DNA of 25,292 bases from a virus: the IMG/VR virus record IMGVR_UViG_3300006790_000104, positions 1 to 25,292 of that record. The stretch is one strand, 5' to 3'. The position numbers and the translations under genes were made by a program. Positions within the stretch are counted from its first letter, which is position 1. Every line of letters begins with the position of its first letter. Below are positions 7,737 through 22,275 of this stretch, piece by piece. The notes under the pieces are model-generated. The model did no database searches. It was not told the DNA's origin and saw only the letters and a list, made by a program, of their open reading frames with translations.

Positions 7737-9218
7737 ATGGCCAACAGCGCAGAAACTAATTGTATTTTATCATTCTTGTTATCTGAATCTAAAAAATGGA
7801 GCCATGTAGACGACGGTGCTGTAGATAGGGAAATAAAAAACCCAAAATTTAAAGCAAAATACGCCAGTAGGGCTAACGTCATTGACGGGATTGTTGCTAA
7901 GACAAAGTATTGGGGGGATTCAATACACGAACAACTCTTAGAGGATTGGGAGGACATAACTGGAATAAGTCCGAACAATATTGGCTCAAAAATCCGAAGT
8001 CCAAACGCAATGTTAGGTGATGATGTTGTAAACATGATTCGCCCCGTTTATACCGAATTTATAAAAAAATACGGTATGCAAAACGAGAAAGCGTGGCGAC
8101 AAACCGCGGGGAAAACAATTGAGAAGCTAGAGGACCAGATTATAAGTATGGTTCCAGACCATATGAAAGATTATGCGTATTCTTGGCTAAACACCCAAAT
8201 CGAGCACGGTGATCTGTTCCCACCCCCAAACGTGGGGGGTCTTCAGGTTCGTGCCAAAAACGCAATTGGTAACGTGGTGAACTGGAACCCTGCTATTGCC
8301 ATTGCAAACGTTTTTGAATTTCTACCAAAAGCCTATGTCTTCTCTGCTCAGAATGGCGACATGTCTGGCTTATCTATTATGAAGGCAATGCGCCGATACT
8401 TCAAAGATACAGGACTAAATTTCGCCAAACGTGTAGACGCTTTAGAAGAGCTGGGTGTATACGGACAAGCAGGCGGAGGGACGATTCTTGATTTAACGGA
8501 AAACCCTCTTCGGGGCTTGTCTTATTATCTAGCTGAAGAGTTAGGACTAGATGGTTTCGATGCCCTAGAAGAGATTGCATTTGTTCCACGATACGGAAAT
8601 AAACCGTTAATCTTTAACCAAGCCGCAGCGTTAGACAGTGTTGCTTTGATGCGTTTCTCTATGTCCGCGTGGAAGATGTATTCTGCGTTATTGAACGGCG
8701 CCCGAAAAGGAAACACCGGCGCGATTGCTGGCTTGTTGGGCTTTTCAGCCCTAACAGCCATACAATCCGGCGGTTCAGCCGCAATCCCTGTGCCACTAGC
8801 CTTACTGCTTGATAAATTAGACCCATCTATTATTGAAGAGTTGGACGAATGGACAGAGGAGTCGCTAGGGTTCAACCTTGCAGGTAAAATGGGCTTGGAC
8901 ATGAAAGAAATGTCCAGACCTTTACCGAGTGTTGCGCTGGGTCTTGGTTATAGCATTGCCACCCAAGATGTTGCTGGTGGTGCAGTAAGAATGGCTACAG
9001 GTGCTGCGGATGTTGCCCACGGCGATGTAGGTCTAGGCTTTACAAACATGCTAGAAGGTCTTTTAGGCGTTGCATTGATTAGTAAGTACCCATTCGCCAA
9101 TGTGTCTACTAAACGCCTTATACAAACGATGAGAACCCAGTTAGAAGAAGATGGTGAGCTTGACCCCGAAGGCTACTTCAATGACTGGATGGTGAACGCA
9201 AAGCTTCGCCAAGAATAA
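7737..9218 (+). CDS. Putative internal virion protein, 493 aa
   Basis: A 493-residue protein starting MANSAETNCILSFLL, with AGGA 9 bases before the ATG. The N-terminal third is charged and helical. Residues about 325-360 (AIAGLLGFSALTAIQSGGSA) and about 395-420 are hydrophobic and glycine-rich, again suggesting membrane interaction. No catalytic motif is evident. It resembles the C-terminal region of very large podovirus internal proteins, which combine helical core-stack and hydrophobic parts. It lies in the same frame as the 830-residue protein upstream, so the pair may be a divided ancestor protein. Confidence in coding is high; role is inferred from position. Confidence 0.55.
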   Translation: MANSAETNCILSFLLSESKKWSHVDDGAVDREIKNPKFKAKYASRANVIDGIVAKTKYWGDSIHEQLLEDWEDITGISPNNIGSKIRSPNAMLGDDVVNMIRPVYTEFIKKYGMQNEKAWRQTAGKTIEKLEDQIISMVPDHMKDYAYSWLNTQIEHGDLFPPPNVGGLQVRAKNAIGNVVNWNPAIAIANVFEFLPKAYVFSAQNGDMSGLSIMKAMRRYFKDTGLNFAKRVDALEELGVYGQAGGGTILDLTENPLRGLSYYLAEELGLDGFDALEEIAFVPRYGNKPLIFNQAAALDSVALMRFSMSAWKMYSALLNGARKGNTGAIAGLLGFSALTAIQSGGSAAIPVPLALLLDKLDPSIIEELDEWTEESLGFNLAGKMGLDMKEMSRPLPSVALGLGYSIATQDVAGGAVRMATGAADVAHGDVGLGFTNMLEGLLGVALISKYPFANVSTKRLIQTMRTQLEEDGELDPEGYFNDWMVNAKLRQE

Positions 9219-9244: not shown

Positions 9245-9997
9245 ATGGATCTGCGCGAACGCGCGGCTCTGATACTTGCGGCAAGAGATAAGCCAAAGGT
9301 ACAGGCGGCGCATATCGAGCTATGCCGACGTGACCCCATTTACTGGTTCAATACGTTTTGTTGGACGTTTGACCCACGTGTGGAACGAGGTTTAGCTTAT
9401 CTACCCTTTAATTTATACCCGTTCCAAGAAGAGTTTGTCCGAGAGCTTATCCGGTGTATTGAGACAGGTGAGGACGTTTGTATTGAGAAAAGCCGTGATA
9501 TGGGTATGTCGTGGTTGATCATTCTAGCAATGCAGTGGTGCTGGTTGTACAAGGCAGGTTGGGACTTCTTAGTAGGCTCCATCAAAGAGAAAGATGTTTG
9601 TACGGCTACAGATGATCCCTCCACTCTATTTGGAAAACTTCGGTTTAATTACCAACGCCTCCCCATCTGGATGAAACCTAAAAAAGGCATCCAAGATAAA
9701 AAGTTACTGATGCAGAATCTAGACAACAATAATGTTTTATCCGGTGAAGCATCGACCACAACTTTTGGAAGGGGCCCACGTAAAAGGGCGATTCTATTAG
9801 ACGAGTTCTCCTACTGGGACAATCAAGAAGATATTTATGGTGGTCTGGCAAACACCACACGTTGTCGAATTGTTAACGGTACACCGTATGGCGAAGACTC
9901 AGAGTATTATAGAATTTTACACAACCCCCACAATGAACTTTACGAGTTCTCTATGGATATTGAGATGAAGAGAGACAGGGGGGTTATTAGTGCGTAA
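9245..9997 (+). CDS. Terminase large subunit, ATPase part (split gene)
   Basis: A 250-residue protein carrying the packaging ATPase half of a large terminase. Residues 81-90 (EKSRDMGMSW) form the degenerate Walker A motif of this family. Residues 182-187 (AILLDE) are Walker B with the catalytic acid. NGTPYGE at 211-217 is the coupling motif. The ATG is preceded by AGGTGA. Full large terminases are about 450-600 residues and continue into a nuclease domain; this ORF ends just before it, and the nuclease lies immediately downstream in the +1 frame with an 8-base overlap. The last residues (RGVISA) are likely out-of-family. Explanations are a real split, a programmed frameshift at the G6 run, or an indel or sequencing error. 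Confidence 0.88.
   Translation: MDLRERAALILAARDKPKVQAAHIELCRRDPIYWFNTFCWTFDPRVERGLAYLPFNLYPFQEEFVRELIRCIETGEDVCIEKSRDMGMSWLIILAMQWCWLYKAGWDFLVGSIKEKDVCTATDDPSTLFGKLRFNYQRLPIWMKPKKGIQDKKLLMQNLDNNNVLSGEASTTTFGRGPRKRAILLDEFSYWDNQEDIYGGLANTTRCRIVNGTPYGEDSEYYRILHNPHNELYEFSMDIEMKRDRGVISA
9969..9997 (+). other. Frame junction in terminase with G6 run
   Basis: The ATPase frame is open to TAA at 9995-9997. The nuclease frame is open from 9969, just after TGA at 9966-9968. Within this 29-base window lies GGGGGG at 9978-9983. Loss of one G would fuse the two into one terminase of about 530 residues (RDRG joined to LLVRKFTIGWW). The same G6 can act as a Shine-Dalgarno for GTG at 9990, as a G6 at 21803-21808 does for the ATG at 21814. 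Confidence 0.7.
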
Positions 9998-10832
9998 GTT
10001 TACGATTGGCTGGTGGCTACACCCCAACAAAAATAAGGAATGGTATGAACGTGAGAAACGAAGAACCTCTCCAGATATTTTTGCAAGAGATGTTGATATT
10101 AATTACGCATTGTCTGTTAGTGATAGGGTTTTCAGCAATTTTGATAGGAATGTCCATGTAAGTCATGAACGTTTAAAATATGACCCCCACCGTTTTTTAT
10201 ACCGTATTTGGGATTTTGGGAAAACCAACAGTGTTTTATGGGTACAGAAAGACGATCTTGGACGTACTCGTGTACTTTTAGAACGGGTGTTAGGAAAGTA
10301 TAAAGGACAGGGCGAAGATTCTACAATCCTAGACCAAGTTTACATTGCCCAAAGCGACACAGACAAATGGTTTCCTAACGCAAATATTTTTGATATTTGT
10401 GACCCACAAGGGGACGTTGCTGACGGAAAGCCTAATACTTATCTGGATACACTTCGAGATAATGATATTAATCCATATTATGACGTTATCAAGAGTATAG
10501 CCCGTCAAAAAATAACACGTTCTGGAACTGAAGTTATTAAACGTGAGCTTCAGATTACAGTGATGAAACAACCCGCATTATTAATTCAAGCCCCTATGGG
10601 TGATTTTAATGGGTGCCCCTTACTCATTGAGGCCATGCAAGGCGGCCTGATTTATAAAAAAGACACGAAGGGCAACCCAACTGACATTATTAAAGAAAAG
10701 CACCCTTACATGGATGTTGTGGATTGTTTAATTTACTACTACTTACAGACAAGCGGGTTCAGTGGGGAAGACGACGAGGACGTCACGATTGAGTACACGG
10801 GTACGGGAATCAACGATTACCTTGGGTATTAA
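9990..10832 (+). CDS. Terminase large subunit, nuclease part (split gene)
   Basis: A 280-residue protein starting at GTG, 6 bases after a G6 run. It begins at the linker normally joining ATPase and nuclease: FTIGWWLHPNKNKEWYE matches the conserved W-HP-K-WY segment, then ARDVDINY. The RNase H-like nuclease metal-binding acids are visible as Asp75 in WDFG, Asp135/Asp138 in FDICDPQGD, and Asp242/Asp245 in YMDVVD. This domain cuts concatemeric DNA at the start and end of packaging. The frame is +1 relative to the ATPase ORF and overlaps it by 8 bases. All expected nuclease residues are intact, so the protein is probably functional, alone or as part of a frameshift fusion. Confidence 0.85.
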   Translation: MRKFTIGWWLHPNKNKEWYEREKRRTSPDIFARDVDINYALSVSDRVFSNFDRNVHVSHERLKYDPHRFLYRIWDFGKTNSVLWVQKDDLGRTRVLLERVLGKYKGQGEDSTILDQVYIAQSDTDKWFPNANIFDICDPQGDVADGKPNTYLDTLRDNDINPYYDVIKSIARQKITRSGTEVIKRELQITVMKQPALLIQAPMGDFNGCPLLIEAMQGGLIYKKDTKGNPTDIIKEKHPYMDVVDCLIYYYLQTSGFSGEDDEDVTIEYTGTGINDYLGY

Positions 10833-10855: not shown

Positions 10856-12772
10856 ATGATGGAAGCAAACACGCTCGATAAGCGTGGAAATATTGTTGCG
10901 GATTTAACAGATACACAGGCAGATGAGTGTATCGGGTTAATGACGGATCTATGGCGCACATCCACTGAGGATATCCGAGAGTTACTAGAAGACAGTAACA
11001 CCGCATGGGATTATTACCTAAACAATCGTCCCAACGCACAAACGTTTGGAACAACAGCTACAAAGAGGGATAAAAGTGATGTTGAATCACGCAGACGTGG
11101 TTTACGTTTAGGGTTAATTCCTAAGCATACAGACTCTATTATCAGTATGCAGCATAACAACACGTTCCCAATTGATGACCGGTTCTTCCGTGGAACACCT
11201 ATTAATAAATACGCCAAAGAAACACAAGAGTTAGTTGAACAGTATTTGGCCTTAAAAATGGCCGAGGCGAACATTACGGAGAAGTTCCGACAATTACGCC
11301 ATAACTCCTTTCTGGACGGAACAGCTTGTGCGGCGTGCCACTGGAAAACAAACAAACTAAAGAAACAGGTACACGAGCCTAGAAAAATTACGATTAAGAG
11401 TCCGTTTGGTTTTGATGTATCGGTTCCTATTCCTCACTCGTATAAATCATCCACAAAGACCGTTACGGTTTGGGAAGGCACAGACGTCACTCCATTAAAT
11501 TTCAATGATTGGCGTGTAGACCCGAATGCGAAGTCTATGGACGATACGTGGTTTATGACACGCTGGTATGAAGAGGGGCACGCGTTAGAGAAACGTTATC
11601 CCGATCTAGGTAAGGTAAGCTCGTACCACAGTACATTTGATGTGGACGATGAGGGGACACGTAGAGAAGACTCAGGACTGCCCAAACGTCAGACCAGCAT
11701 GTCAAAGGATGCAGAACAGGAAGGAAAGCATAAAGCACTTGTTGTCGCATGTTATAACGACTTCATTCTGGATGGTGAATATTACGAGAACCACTTAGCG
11801 GTTGTTGTGAACGACCAAGACTTAGTATGGTTCGGGCCAAACCCGTATAACCACGGAAAAATACCTTACATTGTTATTCCGTACATCCCATTGTCCAATC
11901 AGATTTACGGACTGAGTGGTGTAAAGCACTCTATACCGTCGGCAGAAGTTGCAGACAAGTTGACGGACAGCATGACGTACAAGGCGGCTTACGATTCCAA
12001 CCCAGCCTTTACGGTGAACATGCGAGACCGGTATTTGAAGAAGCACAACAGTATTCGCTTGAGACCTGGAATTAAGATACCGGTTGATACAGAGAACCCA
12101 TTAAGACCTATTGAGATATCTATGGGCAACGTGGGCACAATGTACTCACTGTTAGAGAAAGCCGAACAGAATATCGAACAAACAATCGGTAGTTCTGATT
12201 ACTTGGTTGGAAACGGCCCTGACTCTGGAAACCGGACAACAGCTTTTGAAGTTGATGCCCGTGTTCAGGGTGGAAACAGTCGTTCTCAAGTCCATATGAT
12301 GCACTTTAACAACATGGCGTTAGAGGCATACATGTATATGGCTTATGAGAATGAGAAGCAGTACATGAGTCGTGAGGTAGAAGTAAACGAGCGAATTATT
12401 CGCCCTATTGACCTTAAGTTAAGCGACTTTAAGTGGGTCATCACGAGTACGGCGGCAACTATGTCTCGAAACCGTCGTTTGGCAAACACCAGAGCGTTTA
12501 TTACAGAGATTCTACCGAACCTGATTAGTACGGGAGTATTGAACACCCCGTATAAAGAAGTAGTGCTCATGGAGGTGAAGCAGCTACTTAGGGACAGTGG
12601 GGAAGCGGAAGCGGACACGATTGTAGACATGTTAAGAGAGGCCGCCGGACAACAAGGCTCCATGATGATGGGCCCAATGGACGCACCACTACAAGGAAAC
12701 ACCGATGGATTACCGTCAGCTAATGTCGCTCCCAATGAGGGAGCAGCAACACCGGATGAAGGAAGCGTATAG
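10856..12772 (+). CDS. Portal protein
   Basis: A 638-residue protein forming the dodecameric ring at the capsid vertex, through which DNA enters and to which the tail attaches. Size, place between terminase and scaffold, and sequence style support this: an N-terminal helical region with IPKHTDSIISMQHN, a wing with W-EGTDVTPLNFNDWRVDP, the segment PYIVIPYIPLSNQIYGLSG, then IEISMGNVGTMYSLLEKAEQNIEQTIG, which fits the stem or tunnel-loop helix region. The C-terminal 40 residues are flexible (Met, Gly, Pro, Asn-rich). Two ATGs are adjacent (10856 and 10859) after an AGAAGAGAGA leader. Its end overlaps the next gene by 68 bases. Confidence 0.88.
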   Translation: MMEANTLDKRGNIVADLTDTQADECIGLMTDLWRTSTEDIRELLEDSNTAWDYYLNNRPNAQTFGTTATKRDKSDVESRRRGLRLGLIPKHTDSIISMQHNNTFPIDDRFFRGTPINKYAKETQELVEQYLALKMAEANITEKFRQLRHNSFLDGTACAACHWKTNKLKKQVHEPRKITIKSPFGFDVSVPIPHSYKSSTKTVTVWEGTDVTPLNFNDWRVDPNAKSMDDTWFMTRWYEEGHALEKRYPDLGKVSSYHSTFDVDDEGTRREDSGLPKRQTSMSKDAEQEGKHKALVVACYNDFILDGEYYENHLAVVVNDQDLVWFGPNPYNHGKIPYIVIPYIPLSNQIYGLSGVKHSIPSAEVADKLTDSMTYKAAYDSNPAFTVNMRDRYLKKHNSIRLRPGIKIPVDTENPLRPIEISMGNVGTMYSLLEKAEQNIEQTIGSSDYLVGNGPDSGNRTTAFEVDARVQGGNSRSQVHMMHFNNMALEAYMYMAYENEKQYMSREVEVNERIIRPIDLKLSDFKWVITSTAATMSRNRRLANTRAFITEILPNLISTGVLNTPYKEVVLMEVKQLLRDSGEAEADTIVDMLREAAGQQGSMMMGPMDAPLQGNTDGLPSANVAPNEGAATPDEGSV

Positions 12773-21500: not shown

Positions 21501-21510
21501 GGGGGCGTAG

Positions 21511-21813
21511 ATGGCTATAGAGATAGGCTGGGGACACCTGACAACCATTATAGGGAGTTTGTGTGGAACGATTGTAGCGATGGCCTTATGGATTAAGGAT
21601 GTGTTTAAGAAAACGGATGCTGAGAATAAAGCCGTTATTCAAGTTATGCAAAATAAACTGGATAACTGTCATGAGAAGCATATAGAGAGTGAGATTAAAT
21701 ACGTTGCACTTGAGGCCAAGGTGGACGCAATAAACAGCTTTGACAAACTAAAAGACAGTTTCGTTAAGGGTGTTGTGGACGGTGTAAAAGACATCTTAGT
21801 AAGGGGGGATTAA
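21511..21813 (+). CDS. Small membrane protein, putative holin or spanin-type lysis protein
   Basis: A 100-residue protein. Residues about 9-28 (HLTTIIGSLCGTIVAMALWI) form one transmembrane segment. The remainder is charged and coiled-coil-like (AENKAVIQVMQNKLDNCHEKHIESEIKYVALEAKVDAI). It is preceded by AGGGGG and followed directly by the DUF1353-type gene, with the endolysin two genes on. One membrane span plus a coiled coil suits either an inner-membrane spanin or a small holin; the family is not decided by sequence. Lysis role is inferred from size, topology and neighbours. Confidence 0.55.
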   Translation: MAIEIGWGHLTTIIGSLCGTIVAMALWIKDVFKKTDAENKAVIQVMQNKLDNCHEKHIESEIKYVALEAKVDAINSFDKLKDSFVKGVVDGVKDILVRGD

Positions 21814-22275
21814 ATGTTCAGGAAGCGGGATAGGGAAATACTCTTTGCACGTGTGCCCATCTCTGGTGTGGATTACTTACCGTTGGGCAACGGTGTAAAG
21901 GAGTACATACTATTAAAAGACTTTGTTATCCGATGGCGCCGAGGAAACGTGGACTTTAAGATAGTTGTTCCAAAACGTTTTAACACCGACTTTGGGACAA
22001 CACCGTTTAAGATATTTAACGAAGACTACATGCTGGCCGGCTACATCATCCACGATTGGATTTATTACGAACGAACAAACGACGTGGAGAAACCGTGGTA
22101 CTTCTACCGTAACCCACGTTCGGGCGAGTGGGAACCGGCTATTGCCGATTGGAACCAGTCAGACGCGGACAGCTTGATGCAGGATATTCAGACGTACCAC
22201 AAAGCGCCATGGTGGAAACACTCGGTAGTCTATCGGGCTGTTCGGTTATTTGGTAAGCGCTATTGGGAGAGTTAG
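21814..22275 (+). CDS. DUF1353-type phage protein
   Basis: A 153-residue protein with GGGGGG 5 bases before the ATG; the previous stop abuts it. VVPKRFNTDFGTTPF (residues about 51-65) and AGYIIHDWIYY (about 75-85) are the hallmark segments of the DUF1353 family, small proteins carried by many tailed phages near lysis or tail genes. The His-Asp of HDWIYY might be catalytic, but no activity is established to my knowledge. The C-terminus is basic and aromatic (KAPWWKHSVVYRAVRLFGKR). Its place beside the endolysin suggests a role in lysis or late morphogenesis. Confidence 0.75.
   Translation: MFRKRDREILFARVPISGVDYLPLGNGVKEYILLKDFVIRWRRGNVDFKIVVPKRFNTDFGTTPFKIFNEDYMLAGYIIHDWIYYERTNDVEKPWYFYRNPRSGEWEPAIADWNQSDADSLMQDIQTYHKAPWWKHSVVYRAVRLFGKRYWES

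Follow-up and report, generated by a model that had tools for sequence, protein, structure and literature searches.

The large terminase (TerL) encoded in a linear virus fragment of 25,292 bases from IMG/VR, the whole of which is referred to here as the window, appears to be naturally bipartite, with two separately translated products of one operon forming a heteromeric motor whose lineage underwent one split and one re-fusion. A probability of roughly 85 % is assigned to this reading. TerL, the DNA-packaging enzyme of phages, is normally one protein, formed by a single two-domain chain. In the window, the conserved motifs of this enzyme are distributed over two overlapping open reading frames, ORF1 and ORF2 (Table 1), and the same arrangement could be discerned in related phages; judging from these sequences, it is natural and inherited, and not a sequencing slip. 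Literature searches, which covered open papers, gave no match to a split or two-gene terminase precedent, and it is the naturally bipartite, unspliced nature of this TerL that is new.

Recomputation of the ORF coordinates agreed with the earlier note on this DNA, which had placed the large terminase in two frames overlapping by 8 nt, with ORF2 in the +1 frame relative to ORF1. As the ORF2 frame is closed upstream by a TGA (9966-9968) and ORF1 terminates at a TAA (9995-9997), both frames are open across positions 9969-9997, including the GGGGGG (G6) run, as had likewise been noticed. Between this TGA and the conserved strand that follows, GTG 9990 represents the sole start codon in the ORF2 frame. 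Both ORFs match a single 500-aa TerL in a related phage, L001, with ORF1 sharing 45 % identity with its N half and ORF2 34 % with its C half. While no PHROG family was matched by ORF2 at an E-value of 0.001, it is 26-44 % identical to the C halves of its relatives.

Table 1. Features of the terminase gene pair and its surroundings in the window
Feature	Position	Strand	Evidence and remarks
Gene upstream of terL	7737..9218	+	Common to L112, L114, L075, L001 and L079; blastp 20-34 %
ORF1, TerL ATPase subunit (TerL-N)	9245..9997	+	ATG start, 250 aa; PHROG 5989 and 2, terminase large subunit
Walker A-like motif, EKSRDMGMSW	9485..9514	+	In 7/7 split phages; near-invariant in alignment A11
Walker B motif, ILLDE	9791..9805	+	Alignment and motif comparison across split phages
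Motif III/coupling motif, GTPYG	9878..9892	+	Alignment and motif comparison across split phages
C-terminal tail of ORF1, ending RDRGVISA	9896..9994	+	Gap-free match to L112 tail
G6 run, core of ORF2 Shine-Dalgarno	9978..9983	+	Anti-SD duplex -10.8 kcal/mol, 5 nt spacing
ORF2 (TerL-C), nuclease subunit and C-terminal end of ATPase domain	9990..10832	+	GTG start, 280 aa; identity to relatives' C halves; start codon
ATPase-domain part of ORF2 (last strand RKFTIGWW and two helices)	9990..10118	+	Alignment to L001
Nuclease acid 1, WDFG	10209..10220	+	Alignment and motif comparison
Nuclease acid 2, FDICDPQG	10389..10412	+	Alignment and motif comparison
Nuclease acid 3, HPYMDVVD	10701..10724	+	Alignment and motif comparison
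Portal protein, SU10-type	10856..12772	+	Pfam SU10_portal, 4.5e-16

The features by which a TerL is recognised are largely present in the pair. These include the ASCE ATPase motifs (Walker A, Walker B and coupling motif), the three conserved acids of an RNase H-like nuclease, the fold of which was judged via the intact L001 protein, and a position adjacent to the portal gene; both domains do not, however, occur on one polypeptide, being encoded by two cistrons in seven phages. Motif comparison situated the ATPase motifs in ORF1 and the nuclease acids in ORF2 where the earlier note had them. Structure models were made for the intact L001 TerL and for a re-fused one, L076. In the AlphaFold2 model of the former (pLDDT 91.3; pTM 0.83), residues 1-268 match the ATPase domain of T4 gp17 (2o0h; Z 24.1, 250 aligned residues, 2.8 Å) and residues 29-269 that of P74-26, while the solved nuclease domains of P22 and SPP1 begin at residues 271-273. 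On the basis of the alignment and this model, ORF2 starts at L001 residue ~229, between a helix (219-226) and a strand (230-234). With the ATPase domain extending to residues 268-270, the cut thus falls ~40 residues inside this domain, whose last strand and two helices are encoded in the "nuclease" gene. The description of ORF2 as the nuclease therefore needs to be amended: the whole nuclease does lie there, but the first ~43 residues form the end of the ATPase domain.

A TerL split at the same site was found in seven distinct phages, comprising the window and six others from IMG/VR (L008, L075, L079, L112, L114 and L117), all of them metagenomic or draft contigs and none a named isolate. A profile search with the nuclease half retrieved L008, a second profile search L075 and L079, and a search with the ATPase half the remaining three; L112, the closest split relative of the window, is identical over 7,644 bases to L113 from a second metagenome and was counted together with it. 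The ORFs overlap by 8 nt in the window, 47 nt in L008, 14 nt in L117 and 11 nt in L114 (frame relation +1 in each) and by 1 nt in L112 (TAATG; +2), while they are separated by a 3-nt gap in L075 (frame relation 0, with a stop between the in-frame ORFs) and by a 419-nt gap containing two other genes in L079 (+2). All three frame relations are thus represented, as is expected of separate cistrons. The start of ORF2 occupies the same alignment column (within two residues) in 7/7 phages, just ahead of the "HW..HP" strand, and may be GTG, as in the window, ATG, which in L008 directly follows a TAG stop, or TTG, found two residues earlier in L114. The catalytic motifs are retained in all seven, with 26-49 % identity across both halves, and the third nuclease motif of L114 reads HPWEDIMD in place of HPYxDxxD. 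Each half is present once per split contig, and PHROG and Pfam profile searches of G000, G001 and G005 revealed no second TerL. The two-subunit terminase, which had been put forward as an unusual possibility, is thus borne out by the same split in six other phages, one of which has two genes between the halves. These two small genes (L079, 3580-4017; phrog_16028 and phrog_12377) belong to PHROG families of unknown function.

It had been proposed that a homopolymer error in sequencing or assembly, at the G6 run of a normal single-ORF terL, was the main alternative. Although the break falls at one of just five G6 runs in 25 kb, and intact single-ORF relatives such as L001 exist, this explanation is now highly improbable. 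In the six other phages, the split occurs at an identical residue, in various frames and without a G6 run there, and three of the five G6 runs in the window (4981, 7912 and 8234) are located within long intact ORFs; G6 is not peculiar to a break. Furthermore, the ORF1 products of the window and L112 can be aligned without a gap from TPYGE to the last residue, over the final 39 residues, ending in RDRGVISA and RDKGLIAA, respectively, with the stop next in each. This conservation up to the stop indicates that the frame running through G6 to the TAA is the conserved frame. Comparison with close relatives had been suggested as a check, on the premise that all of them might carry one uninterrupted ORF, and six proved to be split.

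The G6 run is read here as the ribosome-binding site of ORF2, in keeping with its suggested role as Shine-Dalgarno (SD) sequence for GTG 9990. Located 5 nt upstream of this codon, CAGGGGGGU forms a duplex of -10.8 kcal/mol with the anti-SD, where the 5th percentile of random 20-mers lies at -6.9 kcal/mol. This is the third strongest SD among 21 window genes, behind those of the genes starting at 21814 and 21511; the G6 reported ahead of ATG 21814 is indeed present. The three strongest SD sites of the window (21501-21505, 21803-21808 and 9978-9983) are all of a G-run type (G5-G6). Values of -7.0 to -8.9 kcal/mol were obtained for the SDs of L008, L075, L079, L112 and L117.

Programmed ribosomal frameshifting (+1 or -2) or transcriptional slippage at G6, by which one fused TerL would be produced, could draw on the G-rich run within a 29-base stretch open in both frames, but is no more credible as an account of the split. 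The frame relation varies (+1, 0 and +2) among the seven phages and a slippery sequence common to them is absent, so that neither the conserved frame relation nor the slippery site in relatives that characterise a programmed frameshift gene was observed. Moreover, a shift upstream cannot give the conserved ORF2 start in L008, where a stop directly precedes the ORF2 ATG, in L075, where a stop lies between in-frame ORFs, or in L079, with its two intervening genes. Some fused product may nevertheless be made, in small amount, by slippage at G6 in the window phage alone. There is similarly little to commend decay of a split terL in a defective prophage, with loss of TerL function, given that the catalytic motifs are kept in both halves at the level of identity given above and that starts, SDs and gene order are conserved. 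The least probable option is a terL in two exons joined through a self-splicing intron, or in two extein parts joined through a split intein. TerL is indeed a known intron and intein target (PMC10448857, PMC12363816, PMC7156551). In 5/7 split phages, however, the ORFs share 1-47 nt, so that an intron would have no space, and an Rfam search gave no hit in the window, L008, L075, L079 or L076. The ORF1 tail extends only about 10-40 aa past the coupling motif, which is too short for an intein N part, and ORF2 opens on terminase sequence itself, without an intein C part ahead of it.

The bipartite TerL can be set against several known systems. The single-chain TerLs of T4 (gp17), Thermus phage P74-26, D6E, HK97 and Sf6 share the same motifs and, via the intact relative L001, the same fold, but are made as one chain, whereas here there are two, the cut lying ~40 residues short of the ATPase domain's end. 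The terL of phage ICP1 and of the Jug phages likewise comprises two or more ORFs, but these are divided by group I introns and united by mRNA splicing (PMC10448857, PMC12363816); the ORFs described here overlap, and the intron search was negative. The TerL chains of Mic1, Rak2-like phages and phiJA1 are likewise interrupted, by inteins that are removed to leave one chain (PMC7156551, PMC5259590, PMC3670811); the split in the window contains no intein. Two adjacent terminase genes are known in CBB/Rak2-like phages and Sinorhizobium phage phiM12. In CBB (L107, L110; PMC5259590) and phiM12 (L106, L108), one codes for a full TerL and the other for a truncated second terminase ATPase. Both phages were dismissed as split precedents, as they represent duplications and not splits, while here each half occurs once. 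A passage of PMC10448857 cites ribonucleotide reductase as having been split by a homing endonuclease gene into two working peptides. Although a different enzyme, it is similarly an essential one made as two separate peptides; no homing endonuclease gene was seen at the window terL.

Among the TerL ORFs in the fetched loci, 139 other distinct ones run through the split site, with at least 60 residues beyond it. A tree of 32 rows placed L076 and the seven split TerLs in one clade (95/93), and a split-only clade without L076 was rejected (AU test, p = 0.002). L076 is encoded by one ORF, with a loop much longer than that of other one-ORF relatives. This loop carries KKGLADA, resembling the ORF1 tails, and a Met is found exactly at the position where ORF2 begins elsewhere; the L076 model is of low confidence in the linker, and a strand starts at that Met. 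The simplest history is one split in the lineage, followed by one re-fusion in L076. Breaks at sites other than this one occur in the TerLs of L019, L032, L037 and L090, and in a more distant TerL whose terL region is identical in two metagenomes (L173/L175, 3450-5268); none of these was included among the split phages. The break in L173/L175 lies ~40 aa further on and represents either a second natural split or an indel of old date. The ATPase domain of the L021 TerL ORF (around 1240-3183) is interrupted elsewhere by an intein-like insert of ~350 aa. No relatives of the window ORF2 were found among the phage isolates searched. Matches to the ORF2 proteins of L079 and L008 were distant and were set aside; the one examined in full, from Pelagibacter phage Hodr, has an intact TerL.

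In the proposed bipartite motor, TerL-N would supply the Walker A, Walker B and coupling motifs, and TerL-C the ATPase domain's final strand and helices along with the entire RNase H-like nuclease. The anatomy of the genes suggests translational coupling, in which ribosomes terminating ORF1 would initiate ORF2 at GTG 9990 by means of the G-rich SD that lies within the last part of ORF1. TerL-C would presumably dock onto the ATPase sheet of TerL-N with its N-terminal strand, and the docked pair could operate as a packaging motor like an ordinary TerL; from sequence considerations, assembly of the two products into one heteromeric motor is most likely. Since no more than a strand and helices of the ATPase domain come from TerL-C, the complex may be weak or regulated. 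It is also conceivable, though rather doubtful, that the ATPase domain is completed in trans by the nuclease subunit with the ORF1 tail (..RDxGxIxA) serving as a docking element that arose either together with the split or later. Were this so, motor and nuclease might be loaded, exchanged or released separately. A natural split motor provides a way to test the coupling of translocation to cleavage and the need for covalent joining. It is also a warning for gene callers and terL-based taxonomy, in which such phages can be mistaken for broken ones or for ones without a terminase.

The genes on both sides of the terL pair are common to other split phages, with the portal gene next after the pair in all those compared. 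The capsid protein of the window shares 54 % identity with one from the record of Microcystis phage MaAM05. This phage was considered as a relative and rejected, as it has the capsid and portal in common but neither TerL half in the whole record. Host-like kimA, pgcA and hppA genes are found beside its capsid-portal module (L192; MW495066, 210000-222000), and the record has the appearance of a bacterial contig that retains a prophage remnant.
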